Made by a program: the position numbers and the translations under genes. Below the pieces are notes generated by a model. The model did not search any database and was not told the DNA's origin. It saw nothing but the letters and a program-made list of their open reading frames with translations. From the NCBI GenBank assembly GCA_001567105.1, contig LMZR01000014.1, positions 124,001-188,000 on the forward strand: a DNA stretch of 64,000 nucleotides. Reading direction: 5' to 3'. Of the stretch, positions 5,336-63,257 are shown one piece after another. Position 1 is the stretch's first letter. Every line of letters starts with the position of its first letter. The stretch is from Chloroflexi bacterium OLB14. GTDB lineage: Bacteria; Chloroflexota; Anaerolineae; Anaerolineales; Villigracilaceae.

Positions 5336-5354
5336 TTGATTGCCTTATAAAAAT

Positions 5355-15756: not shown

Positions 15757-15795
15757 AAACTAGCCAACTAGCAAACTAGCAAACCAGAAAACTAA
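15757..15795. repeat. ACTAGCAA octamer array
   Basis: Units CTAGCCAA, CTAGCAAA, CTAGCAAA and CCAGAAAA repeat at 8-base intervals between the secA stop and the add start. Confidence 0.7.
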
Positions 15796-18700
15796 TTAAT
15801 TCCTTCGTCTTCTTTTCTTCTTATTGCCAGAATCTGAATCGCCAATTTGAATTGATGTTTCATTTGGCGCACTTGCAACTTCTGCTGTTTCAAGTGCGGT
15901 AATTTCAACACGGCGAGGTCTAGCAGCAAAGGCGCGTCCAATCACCAAACCACGCACATCTTCCAACAACTGCGCAAACATTTCAGATGCCTGTGCTTTA
16001 TATTGTACCAGTGGGTCACGCTGTCCGTAAGCCTCTAATCCAATCGAAACACGCAAAGCTTCAACTTTTGTTAAATACTCAACCCATAATTCACTGAAAG
16101 CGCCCAATAACAATTGACGATGAACTTCATTTAATACATACTTTCCAATTGCATCTGATAAAGTACCCGCTTCCGACTCGCTCAAGCTTGATACTGCTCC
16201 ATTGAGTTTATCTTCCCCGAAAGCGATTCGCGCCGCTGGACCAAAATCTGCCAATTTATTTGCATTTTGTTTCAGACGTGCAAACTCACTTTGTCCCCAA
16301 GTTGTTTGCAATTCTTTTTCAGCAGTTTCTAAATGATTCATGACATCATCAACAATGTCTTCGCTATCTTTGCCTTCTAACAGTTGGGCTGCATAAAAAA
16401 CATAAGTAAAGCGATTAAATAATTGCTTCACTTGTTTATGAGTCTTTTGGTCAAAGGCTGTGCGTGTGCCTTGAGATAATGTCAATAACAAACGTAACTT
16501 ACCCGTATTCGTAGATACATCTTCTCTTTGTAACAAAATATCAATATCACGCGCAATCTGATTATTTAATCGCTCACGTTTATTATCAAAGGCTTGTTTG
16601 GCAGTATCTAACAAAATATCTGCTAACTCGTCCCAATCTGATGGCAATGGACTTTGCAATTGCAATTGTTCACCCAAACGATTTTGAATCGCACCAATCA
16701 CTCTGGTTGCACTAATCACAGTCAATTGACTGGCTACCAAATCTTGAATTGATTCTTTAGCATCTTCGGGGTCATCTGCTAACAACTTTTGAATTTCATT
16801 ATTAAATCTCAATTGCAAACGGGCTAAAGCACTAATCTCTTCTTGTATCTTTTGCGGACGAGGCTTTTCCTCCATATCTCGCAAGCCTTGAAAGTAAGCA
16901 TCTAAGGCATCTTCTCTATCTGAGATTTGACTGTCTAAACTTTCTTGCGTTCGATTTATTAAATTCTCAATAGATTTAATGGCATGAGCATATTCTGCTT
17001 CGATAGATTTTGATGTCACTTTTTGGAATGCAGAAGCTTGCTCTTGCACATCCATCGGCAAGCCGATGGACTCCAAAAGAAGTTTGAAACCATAAGAAGG
17101 ATACAAACCATCTTTCGATTCAAATGCTGGTTGCACTTGATCTAACCAAGCGATTAAACGCCACGCGCCTTCTTCATCAGCCAAACCTGCTTCAACACGT
17201 TTGGTCACTTCGGCATCCAGCATTTCGTTAACATCATCACTCAAATCTTCTTTGAGAAAAATTCTGTCTCGTTGCTCATAAATTTGTTGGCGTTGTTTAT
17301 TCAACACATCATCATATTCCAACAAATGTTTACGCACATCAAAGTTTGCACCTTCAACGCGCGTTTGTGAACCTTCAATAATATTGCTGACGAGTCTTAG
17401 TTCTAATGGAAGTGCATCATCTACCTTAAGGCGATTCATCATTCCACCAACTTGCTCACCACCGAACAAACGCATCAAGTCATCTTGCATGGAAAGATAA
17501 AAACGTGAAGAGCCAGGGTCACCCTGACGAGCAGCACGTCCGCGTAACTGATTATCAATACGTCTGGCTTCGTGACGTTCCGAACCAATCACATGCAAAC
17601 CACCTAACTCTCTAACCAACGCCATATCTTCAAAATACTGTAAGAAAAGTTTAATCTCGGCTTCGTACAAACCAAAATTAGCGGGGTCCATTTTTTGTAA
17701 GGCTTCACGACGTTCTTGTAAAGTCATATCAAACGGATCTTTGTAACCTGCTTTATTCAACACGCGGTTAACTGCTGAAATAACTTCTTCTGCAATTTCA
17801 CCGCCCAATTTAATATCTACACCACGACCTGCCATGTTCGTAGCAATCGTCACAGCACCGAATGCACCAGCCCCTGCAATGATTTGCGATTCTTCCGTGT
17901 GTTTACGTGCATTCAACACTTGATGTGGCACACCACCTTGAAAAATTTTCTTCAATCTATCTTTGGCTGATTCTGGTAAGTGTAAAATTTCCAGCAATGC
18001 TTTCAGATTATTTTCATCGTCCAAACTGATACTATTTAATCCATGTGGCTTGATGAACGCCCGCAAAGCATCAGGCGTAATCTTATCTATCGGTTCATTG
18101 AACGGCACGAGGTCAGCAATGAGGCGTCCGTCTTCTTCCAAATTATTCGCTCGCAGATAATGATCACGCACCAAAGCATATTGCATCAAACGGCGAATCG
18201 ATTCTGCTTTCAGCCTGTTAGATAATTTATCAGATGATTCAACTGATGTAGTTCCCACCAACAACGGGCGACCAAGTGCATGGTTGCGAATTATTTCTGT
18301 AACAATAGCACGCAACTTTGCTTCAACATTTTTGAAGATGACATCAGGGTAATCTTTGCGGCGATAAAAAAGCGGCGTAGTTTCACCTGCTTTTACAAAA
18401 TATGAATAAGCATAGCCTTCATCATCTTTGCTTTTAATTTCAGTTAGCGGCGCAGTTTTTCCATAACTTTGATATTCAAGATTCGGCGCAATGGGTGCAA
18501 CTTCTAATTTATAAATTTTATTAAACTCTTCGGCTTCGGTTAATGCAGTGCCCGTCATGCCTGCAAGTTTTTGATACATGCGAAAATAATTTTGCAAAGT
18601 AACAGTAGCATACGTTACCGATTCAGGTTCAACCTTCACACCTTCTTTCGCTTCCACTGCCTGATGCAAACCATCACTCCATCTACGACCTGGCATTAAA

Positions 18701-25892: not shown

Positions 25893-25901
25893 TCGGTTTG
25901 A

Positions 25902-25970
25902 TAGTTACATAGTTGGCTAGTTATCTAGTTCAACTAACAAACTACCAAACTACCTAACTAATAAACTAAC
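25902..25970. repeat. Octamer array forming the entire dnaE leader
   Basis: Units TAGTTACA, TAGTTGGC, TAGTTATC and TAGTTCAA are followed by complementary-type units CTAACAAA, CTACCAAA, CTACCTAA and CTAATAAA, giving a long imperfect hairpin. The array ends directly at the dnaE ATG, and no Shine-Dalgarno motif is visible. Confidence 0.75.
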
Positions 25971-28900
25971 ATGTCCTTCGCCCACTTACACGTTCACACT
26001 GAATATTCTTTATTAGATGGCTTCTCGAATATCAAGAAGTTAGTGAAGCGTGTTAAAGAAATGGATATGCCCGCAGTTGCCATCACTGACCATGGCACGA
26101 TGTATGGTGTGATTGATTTTTACAAAGCCGCAAAAGGTGTAGGGGTTAAACCTATCATTGGTTTAGAAGCCTATATGGCGCCACGCGGTATGAAAGATAA
26201 AGATTCAAAACTTGACCGTCATTCTTCGCATTTACTTTTATTAGCAGAAAATGAAGTTGGTTATCAAAACTTATTGAAGATTGCCTCCGCTTCACAATTG
26301 GAAGGCTACTATTATCATCCACGCATTGACCATGATTTTCTAGCACAACATTCAGAGGGATTAATTTGTACCAGCGGATGTATGTCTGCTGAAATTCCAA
26401 AAGCATTGTTATATGAAAATCCACAAGAAGCAGTGCGCCGTTGGAATTGGTATTACGATTTATTTGGTGCCGATAGATTTTTTGTAGAACTGCAAAGCCA
26501 TAACATTCCAGAAATTACAGACTTAAATAAAAAATTATTAGAACTTGGTGCAAAATATAACGCACGTTATATCGCCACCAATGATGTGCATTACATTAAT
26601 CAAGAAGATGCAAAGTTACAAGACATCATGTTAACGATGCAAACGCAAACGGTACTCAGTGACCCTGAACGTATGCGCATGAGTGATGATTCATATTTCC
26701 TGCGCCCACCTGCTGAAATGCAAAGGTTATTTGCTGAAGTACCTGAGTCAATGTCTAACACGTTGTTGATTGCTGAACGCTGTAATGTCAATTTAGATTT
26801 CCAAGGTTATCACTTACCAGATTTCCCTGTGCCTTCAAATCACACTGCTGAAACATATTTACGTGAACTTTGCGAGGCTGGGGCTAGGAAAAGGTATGGG
26901 GATGAAGCCACCAGCCAGAAAGTCCGCGAAAGACTCGCTTATGAACTTCGTATCGTGCATGAGATGGGATTCGATGCCTACTTCTTAATCGTGTGGGATT
27001 TATGTCGCTTCGCCCGTGAACGTGGAATTTGGTACAACGCCCGCGGCTCGGCGGCTGGCTCGATCATTGCTTATACACTCGAAATTGCATTGGTAGATCC
27101 ATTAGAACATAATTTAATTTTTGAACGCTTCTTAAATCCAGGTCGTGTGTCTATGCCTGATATTGATTTGGATTTTCAAGATGAGCGTCGGTCTGAAATG
27201 TTGGGCTATTGTGTGAATAAATATGGCACAGATAAAGTTGCTCAAATTATTACCTTTGGCACAATGGGAACAAAAGCCGCCATTCGTGATGTAGCGCGGG
27301 TGATGGAAATTCCATTACCCGAAGTTGACCGTGTTGCTAAACTTGTGCCATTTGCCGCCGCCAAAGGTGCAGGCATGGAAGATGCTATGGCAGTGCGTGA
27401 GTTCAAAGAAATTTATGATAACAACGCGCAAATGCGTGAAGTGATAGACATTGCCACAAAAATGGAAGGCACTGTGCGTAATGCAGGCACACATGCGGCT
27501 GGCGTTGTGATTTCAGATAAAGCACTGACAGAATATTTGCCACTTCATCGCCCAACATCAAATTCAGAAGAAACGCCAATAAAATCCGTAACGCAATTTG
27601 AAATGGGCGTGCTTGAAACATTGGGCATGTTAAAAGTAGATTTTCTTGGCTTAATCACATTAACTGTTATGGCACGCGCATGTGATTTTATTGAAAAACG
27701 TCACGGCATTAAATATGATTTGAATAATATTCCAATTGACGACCCGAAAGCATTTGAATTAATGAGTGCTGGTCAAACGGCTGGCGTGTTCCAAGTAGAA
27801 GGAAGTGGAATGACGCGTTACATCGTGCAAATGAAACCAAAAAATTTGGATAACATCATTGCTATGGTGGCGTTGTATCGTCCAGGTCCGATGGCGTTTA
27901 TTCCTGACTATATTTCTCGCATGCACGGCACACAAGCAGTTAAATATCGTCATCCATCAATGGAAAAGATTTTTAGTGATACCTATGGCATTCCAATTTA
28001 TCAAGAACAATTGATGCAAGCCGCAGTAGAGTTAGCAGGCTATACACCTTCCGAATCAGATGAATTGCGCAGAGCCATTTCTAAAAAGAAAAAAGAAGAT
28101 ATTGATAAACATCGTAATAAATTTGTAAAAGGTGCAGTAGCCAAAGGCATGACTGAACCTATTGCCAATGATATTTATTCTGATTGGGAAGAATTTGCAA
28201 GGTATGGATTTAACAAATCTCACGCCGCTGATTATGGTGTGATTGCAGTTCAAACTGCATTCTTAAAATCTAAATACCCAACCGAATACATGACCGCGCT
28301 TCTATCTGCTACGGCAAGCCAAACTGACAAAGTTGCTTACTATGTTGCCGATGCACGTTTAATGGGCGTACCAGTTTTACAACCTGACATCAATGCATCC
28401 ACTTGGGATTTTGATATTGAGGATGTTGAAACTTCCGCCGAGGACGGCGGAAGTAGCCATGCTCACACCGCCGTCCTCGGCGGCGTGGGAAAGAGCAAAA
28501 CAAAATCACAAATTCGTTTTGGCTTAGGCGCCATTAAAAATGTTGGTCAACAAGCCGTGCAACCGATTATTGATGAACGAATCAAAAACGGAAAATTTAC
28601 AGACCTAAATGATTTTGCTCGCCGTGTTGATTTACGTTCTGTTGGCAAACGCGCACTTGAATGTTTAATCAAAGTTGGCGCAATGGATTCTTTTGGTAAT
28701 CGTGCATCTATGTTGGCTTCGTTAGATAAAATCGTTTCCATTTCCAGTGCACACTTCCGCGCCGCAGATGTTGGGCAAATTAGCATGTTTGGTAGCACAA
28801 GCGGCGTTGTGGAAGAAATCAAATTGCCCGAAGTAAAAAATGTTGATAAACGTGAAATGTTAAATTGGGAACGCGAACTCATCGGGCTTTACATTTCAGA

Positions 28901-29957
28901 TCATCCGCTCAATGAATATCAAGCCACGCTTTCACAAATCGTCAGTTATTTTTCTGGTCAACTTTCCGAATCGAGTCACGAAGAAAAAGTTCGCGTGGCG
29001 GGTCTCATCACAAACATTCGTCCGTACACCACAAAAACTGGCAAGCCAATGGGCTTCGTCACCATTGAAGATATTCAAGGCGTAATGGAAACTGTTTTAT
29101 TTCCAAAAACTTGGGAGCAATACAAAACGAAATTAAATAATGATCAAATCGTTATTATTGAAGGAAAAGTTGATCACAGCAACACGCCACCAAAAATTTT
29201 AGTAGATGTGATTAAAACTGAAATCAAGATTTTAGAATCAGCAGATGATTCGACTCTCAAACCTATTCCTGTTCAAAAACCATCCGCTTCAAAACCTGAC
29301 CCGAAACCTGTTTCTGCACCCAAACAGAATCCAAAGCCTGATGCAAATGTAGGTCACGCTTCTAGCGTGACAAATAAAATTAAACAAGAAAGTCACGTTC
29401 AAAACGTGACCTACGCGATAGCAGAATCAAAACCTGAATATGATGATATGCCTCCCCCACCTGATAACTTCCCAGAAGATTGGGAAAGTCAATGGCAACC
29501 ATCTTTTGATGAAGCAAACATTGCTTCACAAAAAGAACCGAAATTTAAGAAAAATGAAGAAGTGACTCCACCTTTAGCGAATCGTGTGGCTGAGGCATTG
29601 ATAAATGTCGAAGAGCAGAACCAACTAGACGATAAGTTTGAAGCGCTTATTCCATCTTTATATGTTCCACTTGCAAAAGAAAATAAAGATAAAGAACATC
29701 CGCCACAACAGATCACAATTACGTTACGCTCCACTGGTGACCGCGAGCGTGATAAACGGCGCATCAAAACTTTGTATGGCACGCTGATTTCGTATCATGG
29801 GCGCGATAAATTTAGTTTTCAAATTTTTGAAAATAGCAAAGGGCATCTAATTGATTTCCCCAACGAAAGCACACGCATTTGCCCCGAGTTGTTAGAACGC
29901 CTGAAAAAATTATTAGATGAAGAATCTTGGCGGGTGGATGAGATAACGTATCAGTAA
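25971..29957 (+). CDS. dnaE: DNA polymerase III alpha subunit
   Basis: The replicative polymerase, 1328 aa. The N-terminal PHP domain is AHLHVHTEYSLLDGFSNIKK with VAITDHGTMYGVIDFYKA. The palm has RGSAAGSIIAYTLEI and PDIDLDFQDERRSEML, the fingers VALYRPGPMAFIPDYI, and RRAISKKKKEDIDKH with FARYGFNKSHAADY follow. Then come a helix-hairpin-helix region and an OB fold (KVRVAGLITNIRPYTTKTGK). After the OB fold there is a low-complexity linker rich in Pro and Lys and a last domain of roughly 110 residues. Two repeat families are inserted in frame, at 28431-28487 and 29349-29414. The ATG directly abuts the octamer leader. Confidence 0.95.
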   Translation: MSFAHLHVHTEYSLLDGFSNIKKLVKRVKEMDMPAVAITDHGTMYGVIDFYKAAKGVGVKPIIGLEAYMAPRGMKDKDSKLDRHSSHLLLLAENEVGYQNLLKIASASQLEGYYYHPRIDHDFLAQHSEGLICTSGCMSAEIPKALLYENPQEAVRRWNWYYDLFGADRFFVELQSHNIPEITDLNKKLLELGAKYNARYIATNDVHYINQEDAKLQDIMLTMQTQTVLSDPERMRMSDDSYFLRPPAEMQRLFAEVPESMSNTLLIAERCNVNLDFQGYHLPDFPVPSNHTAETYLRELCEAGARKRYGDEATSQKVRERLAYELRIVHEMGFDAYFLIVWDLCRFARERGIWYNARGSAAGSIIAYTLEIALVDPLEHNLIFERFLNPGRVSMPDIDLDFQDERRSEMLGYCVNKYGTDKVAQIITFGTMGTKAAIRDVARVMEIPLPEVDRVAKLVPFAAAKGAGMEDAMAVREFKEIYDNNAQMREVIDIATKMEGTVRNAGTHAAGVVISDKALTEYLPLHRPTSNSEETPIKSVTQFEMGVLETLGMLKVDFLGLITLTVMARACDFIEKRHGIKYDLNNIPIDDPKAFELMSAGQTAGVFQVEGSGMTRYIVQMKPKNLDNIIAMVALYRPGPMAFIPDYISRMHGTQAVKYRHPSMEKIFSDTYGIPIYQEQLMQAAVELAGYTPSESDELRRAISKKKKEDIDKHRNKFVKGAVAKGMTEPIANDIYSDWEEFARYGFNKSHAADYGVIAVQTAFLKSKYPTEYMTALLSATASQTDKVAYYVADARLMGVPVLQPDINASTWDFDIEDVETSAEDGGSSHAHTAVLGGVGKSKTKSQIRFGLGAIKNVGQQAVQPIIDERIKNGKFTDLNDFARRVDLRSVGKRALECLIKVGAMDSFGNRASMLASLDKIVSISSAHFRAADVGQISMFGSTSGVVEEIKLPEVKNVDKREMLNWERELIGLYISDHPLNEYQATLSQIVSYFSGQLSESSHEEKVRVAGLITNIRPYTTKTGKPMGFVTIEDIQGVMETVLFPKTWEQYKTKLNNDQIVIIEGKVDHSNTPPKILVDVIKTEIKILESADDSTLKPIPVQKPSASKPDPKPVSAPKQNPKPDANVGHASSVTNKIKQESHVQNVTYAIAESKPEYDDMPPPPDNFPEDWESQWQPSFDEANIASQKEPKFKKNEEVTPPLANRVAEALINVEEQNQLDDKFEALIPSLYVPLAKENKDKEHPPQQITITLRSTGDRERDKRRIKTLYGTLISYHGRDKFSFQIFENSKGHLIDFPNESTRICPELLERLKKLLDEESWRVDEITYQ
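28431..28487. repeat. CCGCCGTCCTCGGCGG palindromes in frame in dnaE
   Basis: Two GC-rich units in opposite orientation, TTCCGCCGAGGACGGCGGAA and CGCCGTCCTCGGCGGCG, code for the segment around SAEDGGSS and TAVLGGVG. Ordinary DnaE passes directly into IRFGLxAIKNVG there. A further copy is at 49580-49598. Confidence 0.85.
29349..29414. repeat. GTAGGTCACG palindromes in frame in dnaE linker
   Basis: One unit (29349-29371) and an inverted unit (29391-29414) flank a 19-base AT-rich spacer. They are translated within the low-complexity linker after the OB fold. Confidence 0.85.
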
Positions 29958-49661: not shown

Positions 49662-49700
49662 GAAACAAGCAGACGTTAAATCTGAAGCGATGTATCGTTA

Positions 49701-49738
49701 GAAAATAAAACCCGAAAACAGGAATCATTTTCGGGGAT
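49701..49738 (-). terminator. First terminator of the FMN riboswitch expression platform
   Basis: On the minus strand CCCGAAAA and TTTTCGGG form a stem directly followed by TTTTATTTT. It lies about 35 bases downstream of the aptamer, as expected for transcription control. A separate palindrome (ATAAGACTCATGAGAGTCTT) sits between them. Confidence 0.8.
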
Positions 49739-49768
49739 ACGTCAAATAAGACTCTCATGAGTCTTATA

Positions 49769-49930
49769 CCTTCTTATATCCAGACTATACTGTCGGCTTC
49801 GGAGTTGAACCGAATCATGTCATTTGGATTCAGCCAGCTTGCTGGCGTATTGCAGAAGCAAGCTTCTGCACTCCAAATCACTCGTGGGCTATACCACCGA
49901 TCGGGAATTGCACCCTGCCCCGAAGGTTGT
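49769..49930 (-). ncRNA. FMN riboswitch (RFN element)
   Basis: Read on the minus strand, the conserved RFN segments are all there: GGGGCAGGGTGCAATTCCCG, then a GGTGGTATAGCCCACGAG block. At the 3' side are GATTCGGTTCAACTCCGAA and GCCGACAGTATAGTCTGGAT. The facultative arm (49819-49879) closes with ATTTGGA/TCCAAAT and carries two nested hairpins, GCAGAAGCTTGCTTCTGC and CCAGCAAGCTGG, of the genome's repeat type. A TATAAT lies just upstream at 49950-49945. It should turn off the ribXY-ATPase operon when FMN is abundant. Confidence 0.95.
49819..49879. repeat. GCAAGC-centred palindromes inside the FMN riboswitch arm
   Basis: GCAGAAGCAAGCTTCTGCA and CCAGCTTGCTGG. The former shares GCA-GAGC/AAGC words with 59615-59639. 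They occupy only the variable arm. Confidence 0.8.
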
Positions 49931-49944
49931 TATTTAATTTTTGT

Positions 49945-49950
49945 ATTATA
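49945..49950 (-). promoter_or_regulatory. -10 element of the riboflavin operon
   Basis: TATAAT on the minus strand, with transcription expected near 49938, a few bases before the aptamer. The -35 is weak and would fall at the very end of valS. Confidence 0.65.
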
Positions 49951-49981
49951 ACGCAAATAGGTGCGTCGCACTTTTACAACA

Positions 49982-52690
49982 TCACTTCAATTGCGCTTTG
50001 ATTTTTTCAGCAGTATCTTTATAGCCTGCCAATTTATCTTTTTCTTTTTGCACTAATGCCGCAGGGGCTTTGTTAGCAAAATCACCATTCAATAAATTTT
50101 CTAATCTTGTAATATGTGATTCGGCTTCTTTGAGTTCTTTTTCAAGGCGGGCTTTTTCATTGGCGACATCTACCATGCCTGCTAACGGTAAATAAATTTC
50201 GATTGATCCAACAATCAATGCAGTTGAGTCACTTGGCTTTTCAGCAAGCGACTTGAGACTTGTAACCTGTGACTGATCCAATCCTGAAAGAGATGCAATC
50301 ACAGAAATTTGATTTGAAATTAAATCAAGTTTATCGCCAGCGGAAATCGTAGCAGGGATTTTCTTAGATGGTGCGATTCCTTTTTCTGCTCGCAGGTTAC
50401 GGATGGAACGAATCACTTCTTGAATCAACTCAAAATCAGCAATGGATTTTGCTTCCCAAGATTCTTCGTCTGTTGGCTCTGGGAATTTGGCAACAATCAA
50501 AACTTGGGTCCAATCTTTACACAGATTAGAGAGTGAAGATTCTCTTAGCGCACTATGCAAGTGACCCCAAACTTCTTCGGTCACAAACGGTGTGAATGGA
50601 TGTAATAATCTTAAACAAGTATCAAACACTTTAGCCAGCATTTCAACAGTCTGCATTTTGCTTTCTGCATTTTGCATTTGACCTTTGGCAATCTCTACAT
50701 ACCAATCAGCAAAGTCACTCCAAATGAATTCATAAATCTCTGCACCAGCCTGACCATATTGAAAATTTTGAAATTGTCTTTCCACATTGCGAATCAATTT
50801 ATTTAATTTTGCTTGAATCCATTGATCAGCTAAAGATACAGGTTGCGCGTTACGAGTTACTTGTGTACTTGTTTCCTTGTTTACTTCTAAACTTTCAATC
50901 GCATTAATTACAAATCGTCCTGCATTCCAAATCTTATTTGCAAAATTACGATTCGATTCAACTTTCTTAACTCCAACGTTAGTATCATTTCCAGGTGTAG
51001 AACCAACTAGCAGCGTGAAACGAAGCGCGTCTGTTCCAAATTCATCCATGACGATTAATGGGTCAATCACATTGCCTGTGGTCTTAGACATTTTTCGTCC
51101 TTGCTCATCACGCACAAGTCCATGTAAATAGACAGTATGAAATGGCGCTTCATTTGTAAATTCAAGTCCCATCATAATCATACGCGCCACCCAGAAAAAT
51201 ATAATATCGTATCCAGTTTCCATATAAGAAGTTGGATAAAAATATTTTAAGTCTGCTGTTTGTTGGGGCCAGCCCAAAGTTGAAAAGGGCCACAAGCCCG
51301 ATGAAAACCAAGTATCTAACACATCATCATCTTGACGAATTTCTTTTGAGCCACACGTTGCACATTGTGTTGGATCCTCACGCGCAACAGTCATATGATT
51401 TTCTTTGCAATACCAAACAGGAATGCGATGCCCCCACCACAACTGCCTGCTAATGCACCAATCTTTTATATTTTCAAGCCAATTGAAATATGTTTTTTCA
51501 AAACGCTCTGGCACAATTTTTATTTTTTCATTACGCACTGCCTCCAAGCCAGCATTCGCCAGCGATTCCATTTTGACAAACCATTGTTCCGAAATCATCG
51601 GCTCAACAATTTCACCACCGCGTTGTGAACGTGGAATCGTTGTGCGATAATTTTCTGTTTTGATAGTTAGATTCGCATCTTTCATATCTGACCATAAATT
51701 TTTTCGCGCTTCATACCTATCTTGTAGTTGGTATTTGCCTCCGTTGGCATTGATCTTCGCCTCAACATCCAAAACCGATATGATTGGCAAATTATGACGT
51801 TGTGCAATGGCATAATCATTCGGGTCGTGACCTGGCGTAATTTTTAACGCACCAGTACCAAACTCCATGCTGACGTAATCATCACCAATGACTGGAATTT
51901 CACGATTCAAAATTGGCACAATGACTGTTTTACCAATATATTTTTTATATCTTTCATCTTCTGGGTGAACAGCCACAGCAGTATCACCTAAAATAGTTTC
52001 AGGTCGAATCGTTGCTACTGGAATGAATTCATCTGAATCTTTTAACTTATATTTGAAATAATATAACTGCACATCTTCTTCGCTGTATTCCACTTCCAAA
52101 TCTGATACTGCGGTTTTGAGCCCAGGTGACCAGTTGATTAATCTCGGTCCGCGATAAATTAATCCTTTTTCGTAGAGACGCACAAAAGCCTCACGCACAG
52201 CAGTACTCAAACCGTCATCAAGTGTGAAGCGTTCTCTATCCCAATCACATGAAGCACCAAGCCTGCGAATTTGAGTCGTGATGATGTTGCCGTATTTTCT
52301 TTTCCATTCCCATGTGCGTTTTTCAAATTCTTCACGCCCAAGTTCTTCACGAGTCACTTCTTCGTTTTTGAGTAAATCCCTTTCAACCATTAATTGCGTG
52401 GCAATGCCTGCATGGTCTGTACCTGGAATCCAAAGTGCTGAATAGCCTTTCATGCGATGATAACGAATCATCAAATCTTCAACTGAAACAAACATAGCGT
52501 GACCAATATGTAATTCACCCGTCACATTTGGTGGCGGAATAGCAATTACGAATGGTTTTACATTCGGGTCAAAGTTTGCATTGTTGGGATCATTGTGCGG
52601 TTTGAAAAATCCGCCCGCTTCCCACATGGCATAAATACGCGCTTCAGTAGATTTGAAATCGTATGCTTTAGGTAATTCTTTTTTAGTCAT
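49982..52690 (-). CDS. valS: Valyl-tRNA synthetase
   Basis: 902 aa, class I. HIGH motif is PPPNVTGELHIGHAMF, KMSKS is RKMSKTTGNVIDP, and the editing domain (CP1) carries TIRPETILGDTAVAVHPED. The C-terminal anticodon domain is followed by the ValS coiled-coil arm (ARLEKELKEAESHITRLE). It charges tRNA-Val and edits Thr. TCAAGGAGC precedes the ATG by 7 bases. A T-box leader upstream reads a Val codon. Three short repeat arrays are inserted in frame, at 50250-50277, 50649-50680 and 50842-50888. Confidence 0.96.
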   Translation of the reverse strand: MTKKELPKAYDFKSTEARIYAMWEAGGFFKPHNDPNNANFDPNVKPFVIAIPPPNVTGELHIGHAMFVSVEDLMIRYHRMKGYSALWIPGTDHAGIATQLMVERDLLKNEEVTREELGREEFEKRTWEWKRKYGNIITTQIRRLGASCDWDRERFTLDDGLSTAVREAFVRLYEKGLIYRGPRLINWSPGLKTAVSDLEVEYSEEDVQLYYFKYKLKDSDEFIPVATIRPETILGDTAVAVHPEDERYKKYIGKTVIVPILNREIPVIGDDYVSMEFGTGALKITPGHDPNDYAIAQRHNLPIISVLDVEAKINANGGKYQLQDRYEARKNLWSDMKDANLTIKTENYRTTIPRSQRGGEIVEPMISEQWFVKMESLANAGLEAVRNEKIKIVPERFEKTYFNWLENIKDWCISRQLWWGHRIPVWYCKENHMTVAREDPTQCATCGSKEIRQDDDVLDTWFSSGLWPFSTLGWPQQTADLKYFYPTSYMETGYDIIFFWVARMIMMGLEFTNEAPFHTVYLHGLVRDEQGRKMSKTTGNVIDPLIVMDEFGTDALRFTLLVGSTPGNDTNVGVKKVESNRNFANKIWNAGRFVINAIESLEVNKETSTQVTRNAQPVSLADQWIQAKLNKLIRNVERQFQNFQYGQAGAEIYEFIWSDFADWYVEIAKGQMQNAESKMQTVEMLAKVFDTCLRLLHPFTPFVTEEVWGHLHSALRESSLSNLCKDWTQVLIVAKFPEPTDEESWEAKSIADFELIQEVIRSIRNLRAEKGIAPSKKIPATISAGDKLDLISNQISVIASLSGLDQSQVTSLKSLAEKPSDSTALIVGSIEIYLPLAGMVDVANEKARLEKELKEAESHITRLENLLNGDFANKAPAALVQKEKDKLAGYKDTAEKIKAQLK
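50250..50277. repeat. GACTTGA heptamer array in valS
   Basis: GACTTGA, GACTTGT, AACCTGT and GACTGAT at 7-base steps, translated as SQVTSLKS in the C-terminal domain. The words match the array at 45785-45825. Confidence 0.7.
50649..50680. repeat. TGCATTT heptamer array in valS
   Basis: TGCATTT, TGCTTTC, TGCATTT and TGCATTT at 7-base steps. On the coding strand it gives QMQNAESKMQT. Confidence 0.8.
50842..50888. repeat. TTACGAG/ACTTGTGT mixed array in valS
   Basis: GTTACGAGTTACTTGTGTAC and following ACTTGTTT/CCTTGTTT units are translated in frame as part of a segment containing TSTQVTRNAQ. Confidence 0.65.
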
Positions 52691-52707
52691 TCTTGCTCCT
52701 TGATATC

Positions 52708-52758
52708 CGTTGGTCGAGTAGCCTGAGGCGATAGCCGAAGACGTACCGAGACCAACCG
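52708..52758. repeat. TGGTCGAGTAG...CGAGACCA repeat
   Basis: GTTGGTCGAGTAGCCTGAGG and ACCGAGACCAAC bracket a stem. It lies in the valS leader between terminator and start. Confidence 0.85.
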
Positions 52759-52781
52759 TTAATGAAAATCACTTTATTAAC

Positions 52782-52829
52782 TGGTGGTCTCGATACGTTC
52801 CTCGCTTCGCTCCGAACTACTCGACCACC
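52782..52829. repeat. TGGTCTCGATACG...CTACTCGACCA repeat
   Basis: GGTGGTCTCGATACG and CTACTCGACCACC around TCGCTTCGCTC. It is the mirror partner of the copy at 52708. Confidence 0.85.
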
Positions 52830-52842
52830 GAATTTACTTAAA

Positions 52843-52880
52843 ATAAAAAACACTCCATCCATTAGAGGACGAAGTGTTTC
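52843..52880 (-). terminator. T-box controlled terminator of valS
   Basis: On the minus strand AAACACTTCGTCC and GGATGGAGTGTTT pair, then T-run. It lies directly downstream of the T-box sequence. Confidence 0.88.
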
Positions 52881-52924
52881 CCTTCGATAAACTCAGGGCG
52901 GCGCTCCGTGGTACCACCTCAATT

Positions 52925-52975
52925 CATTATTAGTTAGCTAGTTTACTGGTTAGATAGTTTGCTAGTTAAGAAATA
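52925..52975. repeat. TAGTTAGC octamer array inside the T-box leader
   Basis: TAGTTAGC, TAGTTTAC, TGGTTAGA, TAGTTTGC and TAGTTAAG at exact 8-base steps. It is flanked by AATTCATTATT and AATAATGCACTT, which can pair around it. Confidence 0.85.
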
Positions 52976-53023
52976 ATGCACTTGAATTGCTATAACGGGC
53001 TGACCCGTGATGTTCTACGTTTT

Positions 53024-53047
53024 GTAGGTCACGTTTGTAACGTGACT
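53024..53047. repeat. GTAGGTCACG palindrome inside the T-box leader
   Basis: GTAGGTCACGTTTGTAACG with the closing CGTGACT. It sits between stem I and the octamer array. Confidence 0.85.
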
Positions 53048-53167
53048 TGCAAAATTTCTTCATCAAATAATTCAGACGACTTTGGCAATTTTTTTCTGTG
53101 AAGGCTTTCAGCCAATGACCTTCGTTTCTGTCAGAGAACGAATTGCTTACTACTTCTGAATGGCGAG

Positions 53168-58563: not shown

Positions 58564-59637
58564 CTAAACTGCTGCGCTTACTCCTGCTTCGCCGAAGGTT
58601 GCCATTTCACTTAAAATTTTACAAGCCGCTTCAGCCAATGAAATTCCAAACGTTGCGCCTGTGCCTTCGCCGAGTCGCAAATCTAAATCAAGCAATGGTT
58701 TTGCGTTTAACCAATCTAACATCAAAGCGTGACCATTTTCTTTTGAGCGGTGTGCGAAAATTAAATAATCTTTGCATTGTGGTGCAAGCGTTACTGCAAT
58801 CATCGCGGCGGCAGTGGATATAAAACCATCTACCATAACAGGAATATTTTTAGATGCCGCACCAATCATCACGCCAGCCAGCCCGCCAATTTCAAAGCCA
58901 CCCACTTTAGATAACACATCCAAGCCATCATTTACATTTGGCTTATTCACTTTCAAACTTTTTTCAATAACAGAAATTTTTCTTTTGAGTCCATCATCAT
59001 CCACACCTGTGCCACGCCCTGCAATTTTTTCAGGATGAACATTCATCAATGCACATGCAATCGCCGCAGATGGTGTTGTGTTACCAATGCCCATATCACC
59101 TGTGCCAATGATATCTGCACCTTTGGATATTTCTGCTAAGGCGATTTCGATTCCGCTTTGAATTGATTCTTGTGCCTGTTCACGCTTCATTGCCTGACAT
59201 TGAGCTAGGTTCTGTGTCCCCAAGCCAATGCTACGCCGAATCAGTTTTTCATCATCAGTAGAGATTTCATTTGCAACGCCCATATCTACCACAACGACTT
59301 TGGCACCGATATGATTTGCTAATACATTAATCGCCGCGCCACCTGATAAAAAGTTCAAGACCATTTGCGGAGTCACTTCTTGTGGGTACGCACTGACTCC
59401 TTCGGCAACCACGCCATGATCACCAGCCATGACGATGATAACTTTATTTTTGATGTGCGGAATATTTTTTCCAGTAATGCCTGCAAGCTGAATAGAAAGT
59501 TCTTCCAACTTGCTTAAACTGCCAGCAGGTTTGGTGAGTTGGTTTTGTCGCTCACGTGCAAATTGCATGGCAGATTGGTTGAGAGGTTGAATGATTGGCA
59601 GGTTCATAATTTTATTTACAGGAGCAAGCTCCTGCAT
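58564..59637 (-). CDS. cobT: Nicotinate-nucleotide--dimethylbenzimidazole phosphoribosyltransferase
   Basis: 357 aa. Motifs are RQNQLTKPAGSLSKLEELSIQLAGI, VIVMAGDHGVVAEGVSAYPQEVT, GADIIGTGDMGIGNTTPSAAI and KVGGFEIGGLAGVMIGAA. The Glu and Gly-rich catalytic loop is at the C-terminus (LGEGTGATFG). It activates the lower ligand base as alpha-ribazole phosphate. Expected to act before CobC and CobS. An ATG at 59607 (MNLPII) is an alternative start. Confidence 0.95.
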   Translation of the reverse strand: MQELAPVNKIMNLPIIQPLNQSAMQFARERQNQLTKPAGSLSKLEELSIQLAGITGKNIPHIKNKVIIVMAGDHGVVAEGVSAYPQEVTPQMVLNFLSGGAAINVLANHIGAKVVVVDMGVANEISTDDEKLIRRSIGLGTQNLAQCQAMKREQAQESIQSGIEIALAEISKGADIIGTGDMGIGNTTPSAAIACALMNVHPEKIAGRGTGVDDDGLKRKISVIEKSLKVNKPNVNDGLDVLSKVGGFEIGGLAGVMIGAASKNIPVMVDGFISTAAAMIAVTLAPQCKDYLIFAHRSKENGHALMLDWLNAKPLLDLDLRLGEGTGATFGISLAEAACKILSEMATFGEAGVSAAV

Positions 59638-59639
59638 TC
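59615..59639. repeat. GGAGCAAGCTCC repeat
   Basis: CAGGAGCAAGCTCCTGCATTCC is the same type as the palindromes in the FMN riboswitch arm. It overlaps the longer cobT N-terminus. Confidence 0.75.
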
Positions 59640-59644
59640 CATAG

Positions 59645-62364: not shown

Positions 62365-62578
62365 CAGGCAATCCGAACAGGCTACCTTCATCCACCTCCT
62401 TCCGCGAGAGTGTGGTGAACAAACCAGTAGCGGGCGACCTGACTTCTTAACCATTAGCTTTTGGCAATTAGCGTTTAGCCTTTTGGCTAATTGCTAATTG
62501 CTAACTGCTAACTGCTAATTTCACAGTTGCGCGACAGTGTTGGAATTTCACCAACTTCGCCGCTTGCTAGTCGTTATT
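62365..62578 (-). ncRNA. Cobalamin riboswitch
   Basis: On the minus strand GTTGGTGAAATTCCAACACT and GTCGCGCAACTGTGA carry the conserved B12-box core. GTCAGGTCGCCCGCTACTGG and then CTCGCGGAAGGAGGTGGATG follow. A heptamer array occupies 62455-62520, exactly between the CAACTGTGA and AGTCAGGTCGCC blocks. It should repress the downstream btuF-btuD operon in the presence of adenosylcobalamin. A TACAAT at 62594-62589 is a likely -10. Confidence 0.95.
62455..62520. repeat. GCTAATT/GCTAACT heptamer array inside the cobalamin riboswitch
   Basis: GCTAATT, GCTAATT, GCTAACT, GCTAACT and GCTAATT follow at 7-base steps after an inverted half with ATTAGCG/GGCTAAT words. It folds into a stem in the variable region only. 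Confidence 0.88.
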
Positions 62579-62588
62579 TATATTTTGT

Positions 62589-62594
62589 ATTGTA
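62589..62594 (-). promoter_or_regulatory. -10 element of the cobalamin operon
   Basis: TACAAT on the minus strand, within about 12 bases of the riboswitch start. A TTGCTA lies 19 bases upstream at the end of the lipoprotein gene. Confidence 0.5.
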
Positions 62595-62612
62595 CCACTG
62601 CTTTAGAGGTGG

Positions 62613-63257
62613 TTAGCAATCGGTAAATTGAGGGAATAAGCTATATGAATATTCATCCATATAATCACTTAATTCAACAGGCAATATAATTTCAAGTGTT
62701 ACAACACGATGTTCGGTATCATTTACTGCCCAATATTTCACATCATACTCATAACCACTTAAGCTAGTAGAGAATTGATATAAACGCAAGCCACTGTTGC
62801 TACGACATTCGGTTAGATATTCATAGCTATCATAGCCTTCAAAAACAATTTGCCAATTATCAAGGCTAAAATAATTGTCCAAATCAAGGTCTTCGTAGCT
62901 ACAGGGGAAAATTAGCAACTCCAAAAAAACAACGCCTGCCAATGAAGTACTATTCCAAAATACTGAGACTCGATCTGCTGAAACTGTATAAGTGCGAGCC
63001 CAATCTTCTGTATCAAATAATTTTCCCGTAAAAGATAAAGCACGTTCAATATCTTCTGTTGTAGGTTCAGTTGCCACGCAAGCCGATATACTAGGAGTTT
63101 CTTCTATAACTTCCGCTTTTGTTGAGGAAGGAGAATTGGGCTCAGGAGAAGGCGGAAGCAAGGCAGGCAAATCACTTGTTGGAACGTTTGAAGCATTTTT
63201 TGTACCACAGGCGGCTATTAGCAATAGAATTAGAAATGCAGATAGAAATCTTTTCAT
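62613..63257 (-). CDS. Hypothetical lipoprotein
   Basis: 214 aa from the ATG at 63257, with GAGG 8 bases upstream. The signal peptide has a lipobox (LILLLIAACGTKN). A Ser/Pro-rich stretch (about 25-45) and a globular domain with several Cys and aromatic residues follow. No known domain recognised. Divergent from the response regulator downstream, whose Pho-box-like region lies in the shared spacer, so it could be phosphate-regulated; this is inference. Confidence 0.65.
   Translation of the reverse strand: MKRFLSAFLILLLIAACGTKNASNVPTSDLPALLPPSPEPNSPSSTKAEVIEETPSISACVATEPTTEDIERALSFTGKLFDTEDWARTYTVSADRVSVFWNSTSLAGVVFLELLIFPCSYEDLDLDNYFSLDNWQIVFEGYDSYEYLTECRSNSGLRLYQFSTSLSGYEYDVKYWAVNDTEHRVVTLEIILPVELSDYMDEYSYSLFPQFTDC

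Follow-up and report, generated by a model that had tools for sequence, protein, structure and literature searches.

Repeat copies in the variable arms of three riboregulators

The stretch analysed here (the window: 64,000 nucleotides of Chloroflexi bacterium OLB14, contig LMZR01000014.1, positions 124,001 to 188,000, designated G000:C14:124001-188000, where G000 is the source genome, a 3.04-Mb draft) carries three riboregulators on its minus strand: a flavin mononucleotide (FMN) riboswitch, the T-box leader of valS and a cobalamin riboswitch. A reading made from the sequence alone had proposed that all three hold copies of repeats found elsewhere in the window and that their conserved cores are nevertheless intact, and both proposals were borne out. 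Each riboregulator shares repeats with other parts of the window by blastn, and these repeats lie outside the cores. The two riboswitches pass their Rfam gathering scores (66.2 bits for RF00050 and 31.5 bits for RF00174), and the valS leader retains specifier, F-box and T-box despite scoring 62.7 bits, below the 93 bits set for RF00230.

The FMN aptamer (49764..49931, minus strand; 97.4 bits, core helices intact) precedes a gene pair for a BPD permease and an NMT1/THI5-like binding protein (Pfam), by domain a RibXY-type transporter. The RF00050 alignment places a 53-nt insert within its variable arm, P4 (49817..49881, minus strand), which contains at 49822-49878 a copy of a dispersed element of ~56 bp laid out as ATTTGGA, two palindromic hairpins and TCCAAAT. 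This element has 30 matches in its own genome (29 besides the arm), the best outside the window being 93% identical over 57 nt, and further window copies lie at 17022-17080 and 59616-59641. Downstream of the aptamer, at 49700..49736 (minus strand), direct reading of the sequence shows a terminator-like hairpin (CCCGAAAA..TTTTCGGG) and then a T-rich run, and the FMN loci of relatives have a comparable CCCCGAAAA..TTTTCGGG hairpin.

The cobalamin riboswitch (62412..62614, minus strand; 33.6 bits) precedes an operon for a periplasmic binding protein, a FecCD permease, CobA, CobT and CobS (Pfam). It has the core motifs GGUG.AAUUCC, CGCAACUGU and AAGUCAGG..GCCCGC, which were also present in the copies extracted from relatives. 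The variable arm after CGCAACUGU (62446..62522, minus strand) is a hairpin of five TTAGCNN heptamers facing GCTAANN units (period 7, p=0.005), with a predicted folding energy of -31.5 kcal/mol and a z of -8.2.

The leader upstream of valS (52891..53166, minus strand) contains the Val specifier GUC, the F-box CCGUUA and the T-box UGGUACC. Judged by this anatomy it is a T-box, the window copy alone not reaching formal Rfam membership; most orthologous leaders of relatives likewise score below 93 bits. Two of its apical loops carry inserts. In Stem II (53019..53054, minus strand) the insert is a TAGGTCACGTTTGTAACGTGAC palindrome of the form TAGGTCACGTTT..AACGTGAC, the pattern of which has 74 matches genome-wide and 0 in the reversed control; other window copies lie at 5354 and 29348-29414. 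In Stem III (52930..52969, minus strand) it is an octamer array (AACTANNN) in a single orientation, identified by TRF, blastn and comparison with relatives. By blastn, it matches two intergenic arrays of the same family in the window, neither assigned to a strand: one at 15757..15799, also in a single orientation, and an octamer-array hairpin (TAGTTNNN / AACTANNN) at 25896..25971, of which 25896-25968 is matched. A terminator-like hairpin and T-rich run follow the leader at 52846..52880 (minus strand; sequence reading). Because the valS T-box falls below its Rfam cut-off and the cobalamin riboswitch barely above, both with inserts, such inserts would partly explain the poor scores of these leaders against RNA family models.

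Two hairpins resembling repetitive extragenic palindromic (REP) elements, with GGTCGAGTA..CGAGACC and GGTCTCGATACG..CTCGACCACC, stand between this terminator-like hairpin and the valS start (52706-52754 and 52786-52829). The valS coding sequence itself contains a run of ~4 octamers (TTACTTGT) at 50857-50886.

Pairing, turnover and placement of the arms in related species

Orthologous arms were drawn from up to 36 genomes of the same genus, representing ~30 species. Significant tandem arrays made up the cobalamin arm in 18 of 27 genomes (7 heptameric, 10 octameric and 1 of period 9) and the arm of the second glycine aptamer in 17 of 30. In the glycine riboswitch of the source genome (G000:C62:55091-55249), aptamer 2 contains an octamer hairpin and aptamer 1 a REP-like one; REP-like hairpins show clean presence or absence in aptamer 1 (G000, G011 and G014). 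Plain hairpins of 14-20 nt stand in place of the repeat arms in other species. Looser octamer arms were also seen in cobalamin riboswitches from a different family within the order (G039 and G052). Arrays and array arms also occurred in genomes assembled into one or a few contigs (G020, G025 and G016), which ruled out an assembly artefact.

Octamers were searched as exact matches only, because a pattern allowing 2 mismatches gave the same count as its reversed control. Complementary arrays, TAGTYNNN on the 5′ side and RACTANNN on the 3′ side, were paired in 25 of 32 octamer arms of riboswitches versus 7 of 31 octamer loci elsewhere (Fisher p=1.3e-5; this and the other cross-species p-values are optimistic, as the species are related and not independent). 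Pairing gives the arm a ladder form, in which ~5-bp blocks (TAGTY/RACTA) alternate with 3-nt spacers. In predicted folds, 84% of constant positions and 38% of spacer positions were paired, and the mean fold z of repeat arms was -5.9 and -4.4. Among species, the variable fifth letter of the unit co-varied with the letter it faces (TAGTC with GACTA, TAGTT with AACTA; rho 0.71, p=4e-5); covariation at position 2 was not significant (rho 0.22). The polarity of the hairpins was fixed, with TAGTY or TTAGC on the 5′ side and the complement (RACTA or GCTAA) on the 3′ side, both in the arms and in nine strictly checked hairpins, and it was never reversed in the octamer and heptamer hairpins examined.

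The arms turn over rapidly. A valS tree covering 29 species implied a minimum of 10 changes in arm type for the cobalamin arm (21 species), 11 for the glycine arm (25), 9 for Stem II (26) and 5 for Stem III (22). In the cobalamin arm, the sisters G036 and G016 differ by TAGTC versus TAGTT octamers, and G004 and G011 by octamers versus heptamers; in the glycine arm, G036 and G016 differ by octamers versus heptamers. The boundaries of the arm, set by conserved core motifs, remain constant between sister species. Differences affect the two sides of the hairpin jointly, an indication that the arm may be swapped as one unit. The Stem II loop of relatives is either ~20 nt long or contains heptamer arrays instead; arrays were significant in 11 of 26 genomes, all with period 7, and loop lengths clustered around 20+7n (20, 27, 34, 41, 46-47 and 62). 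Significant arrays in the Stem III loop were found in 3 of 22 genomes.

The P4 arm of the FMN riboswitch behaves differently. In relatives it is short or belongs to one of two conserved longer types of 43 and 59 nt, and among same-genus FMN loci only G000, G001 and G036 have P4 arms made of repeat elements. In its many similar copies and its presence or absence at orthologous sites, the dispersed element resembles a mobile palindromic element of the REP kind or of a miniature inverted-repeat transposable element. According to the sequence-only reading, equally long but unrelated arms at the same places in relatives would make the repeats ordinary variable arms. Such arms are present at P4, which is therefore an ordinary variable arm, yet the arm in the window is a copy of a dispersed element. 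The 43- and 59-nt arms are well conserved alternatives among the FMN loci of sister species, for example L028 and L015.

Inserts were tolerated in FMN P4, the cobalamin arm, the aptamer-2 arm of the glycine riboswitch and the loops of Stems II and III, in agreement with the earlier proposal that they are confined to peripheral arms. The confinement is not strict, however. An extra hairpin lies inside FMN L2 (between GGGUG and GAAUUCCC) in five relatives (G016, G017, G019, G031 and G036), an insert lies in L5 of one, G030, and a REP-like hairpin adjoins the conserved GGUGGAAG in the Stem I distal loop of the T-box in G025 and G036. The L2 and L5 loops of FMN riboswitches are usually held to be conserved and functional, and the Stem I distal loop, which contacts the tRNA elbow, is also usually considered functional. 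Because these loops accept inserts, the map of tolerant loops is wider than the sequence-only reading supposed. The FMN loci concerned are L073 (G016), L078 (G036), L082 (G019), L085 (G031) and L086 (G017) for L2 and L084 (G030) for L5.

Repeats across the genome and the phylum

Above-threshold tandem runs in 37 kb of intergenic DNA peaked only at periods 7/14/21 and 8/16/24, where dinucleotide shuffles gave zero. The first series corresponds to the short tandem units of ~7 nt dispersed in intergenic DNA that characterize the short tandemly repeated repetitive (STRR) sequences of cyanobacteria. Arrays of period 7 or 8, the class to which the Stem III octamers and the cobalamin heptamers belong, cover 5% of intergenic bases. 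Hairpin elements with TTTGGA, TAGGTCAC or TCGAGTA..TATCGAGA are dispersed alongside them in many copies, in the manner of REP and other palindromic intergenic elements.

Repeats were present in 8 of the 11 riboregulators found in the source genome (five of seven T-boxes and the FMN, cobalamin and glycine riboswitches) and in none of the remaining three, the thiamine pyrophosphate (TPP) riboswitch and two T-boxes. Besides the valS leader (L007), the T-boxes concerned are L002 and L003 with CAGTNAT heptamers, L003 also with a REP-like hairpin, L004 with the TAGGTCAC palindrome and L005 with octamers. Three repeat families together placed 6 copies in riboregulators versus 0.87 expected from the intergenic share (P=3e-4, with family counts taken partly from our own clustering of pattern matches), and octamers alone placed 3 versus 0.17 expected. 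The occurrence of repeats in three of three riboregulators, which had been called striking, is thus above chance but slightly lucky in view of the genome-wide proportion.

Array density per kb was 4.8 in cobalamin riboswitches, 2.6 in glycine riboswitches, 2.1 in valS T-boxes and 0.8 in other top-scoring T-boxes, versus 1.2 in intergenic and 0.2 in coding DNA. The TPP riboswitch, a negative control, had no insertions in 30 species (106-112 nt). Tandem arrays were likewise absent from FMN P4 in 32 same-genus genomes, and 7/8-nt arrays from RNase P RNA in 30 species, so that RNase P was dropped as a further array-bearing RNA. Being a riboregulator is therefore insufficient by itself, and a tolerant loop seems to be needed for arrays. 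Because density is high in the cobalamin, glycine and valS T-box RNAs and arrays are lacking in RNase P and TPP, we conclude that the repeats are common across non-coding DNA and that particular loops, not riboregulators in general, are their hot spots. In six genomes (G005, G018, G021, G031, G032 and G036), a P12-like arm of RNase P RNA was replaced by a dispersed GC-rich hairpin, CCCTCACCCC..CCCTCTCCC..GGGAGAGGG. The same hairpin repeat occurs in T-box L004.

Of 301 Chloroflexota genomes, 14 contained exact four-unit TAGTY arrays. All 14 are among the 18 genomes sampled from the family of the window, and none of the other 283 had such an array; a reversed control was near zero.

Origin of the arms and known systems

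The variable arms are probably lineage-specific intergenic repeats caught in tolerant loops, where the copies in cobalamin and glycine riboswitches are kept mainly if they fold on themselves. Repeats of two kinds, degenerate 7- or 8-nt tandem units (~5 constant plus 2-3 free nt) and short palindromic elements, would arise or land repeatedly in non-coding DNA within this family of Anaerolineales. Selection would remove copies that disrupt a sensing core, and those in tolerant apical loops would survive, in the cobalamin and glycine arms mainly as complementary array pairs that form a self-contained ladder hairpin. Such an arm would grow or shrink by whole units, presumably through slippage, which fits the unit-wise change in length, or through copying, and would now and then be replaced wholesale by another repeat class. 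Its sequence would be neutral. Several results weigh against this account. Genus-wide, the pooled RNAs exceeded intergenic DNA just 1.9-fold, with lower-scoring T-boxes only partly sampled, and a purely neutral filter does not explain the single fixed polarity of the hairpins. A shared order of spacers, which would indicate that arrays originate by copying, reached only P=0.06, and spread by simple copying was rejected on this value.

It is very unlikely that these are ordinary variable arms that resemble genomic repeats by coincidence. In Rfam the length of such arms varies, the long FMN P4 arms of relatives are unrelated to the repeats, and the pooled enrichment is modest; however, the window's FMN arm shares up to 93% identity with dispersed copies, arrays of period 7/8 vanish in shuffles, octamers exceed their expected number in riboregulators and the Stem II loop varies in heptamer steps. 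The FMN, cobalamin and Stem III arms of the window already contradict this explanation. Tuning of folding, which the sequence-only reading had raised, would require arm length and stability to set folding kinetics, the pause window or the switch threshold, with repeat number adjusted by species. Unit-wise length steps, strongly stable hairpins and arms that are flanked by core helices, with a terminator-like hairpin in the same leader, are what a tuner might show. Nonetheless, length, class and stability jump without visible pattern between sisters such as G036/G016 and G004/G011, minimal hairpins take the place of the arms elsewhere, and the same repeats occur in unrelated intergenic DNA. We therefore found no support for tuning and consider it unlikely.

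Equally improbable is a mobile element that targets hairpin loops, in which a transposase or an enzyme like the REP-associated tyrosine transposases (RAYT) would insert palindromes into the loops that transcribed or extruded hairpins expose. Consistent with this mechanism, REP-like hairpins are cleanly present or absent in glycine aptamer 1 and in one loop of the T-box (G025, G036), and copies of the dispersed element in the FMN arm are up to 93% alike, but the bias towards loops may be survivorship, and the arrays have no element ends. Still less credible than ordinary arms are arrays serving as binding sites of a sequence-specific RNA- or DNA-binding protein in a regulatory network. The constant pentamer with free spacers and, by the strict pattern, the restriction to one family are in its favour, and comparable roles were proposed for TAACTGA heptamers of Beggiatoaceae (PMC4679880) and for octanucleotide sites of Geobacter (PMC2700814). 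Against it, one and the same site may be occupied interchangeably by TTAGC heptamers, TAGTY octamers, TAGAGAA heptamers or palindromes, and fold predictions for riboswitch arms place the constant part in base pairs. A more far-reaching idea, which we regard as conceivable but doubtful, is that a dedicated and still active process installs and swaps paired arrays of fixed polarity as whole units in the loops of structured RNAs. Through hairpin-templated repeat synthesis or a mobile array hairpin, it would provide the clade with a standard exchangeable peripheral arm common to cobalamin riboswitches, glycine riboswitches and T-boxes.

The closest precedent for such repeat-built arms is the P6b stem in the group I intron of Nostoc tRNA-Leu(UAA). 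Its degenerate heptanucleotide repeats base-pair to form a hairpin that changes by repeat units, and one repeat class has replaced another several times (PMC3488679, PMC4476775). The G000 cobalamin arm is likewise composed of degenerate 7-nt units that pair between the two strands, and by analogy the present arms share with P6b a structured-RNA arm of pairing repeats, 7-nt steps and class replacement at a fixed site. Whereas P6b belongs to one cyanobacterial intron, the arms described here occur in riboswitches and T-boxes of Chloroflexota, also use 8-nt units and involve several RNA families per genome. STRR sequences reportedly occur in cyanobacterial RNase P, to go by the title of a 1997 article by Vioque. 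That system is similar in having dispersed short tandem repeats within a structural RNA gene, and differs from the RNase P RNA of this clade, in which no arrays were found. Octanucleotide repeats of Geobacter metallireducens have a TAGTT-like unit on both strands and thus resemble our arrays in unit length, constant part and inverted arrangement; within the portion of that paper available, they are not reported inside riboswitches (PMC2700814). The TAACTGA heptamer arrays of Beggiatoaceae, Cyanobacteria and Bacteroidetes are similarly abundant intergenic direct repeats, but their unit is invariant, directly oriented and adjoins start codons, and riboswitches are not mentioned (PMC4679880).

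A search that was weak for subscription journals and supplements returned no publication describing repeat arrays in the arms of riboswitches or T-boxes. With these results, RNA arms built from repeats extend beyond a cyanobacterial intron to a second phylum, where several riboregulators have them together. The ~30 sister species constitute a natural experiment on such arms, from which the riboswitch and T-box loops that accept inserts, and the need for an arm to fold on itself, can be read directly and tested.

Two further features of the source genome were recorded. At L233 (G000:C62, ~64640-64790), a partial duplicate of the 3′ end of RNase P RNA lies ~125 nt downstream of rnpB, and an octamer array follows each of the two copies. 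At L109:16110-16209, there is an Rfam match to PYLIS_3, the pyrrolysine insertion sequence of mttB.

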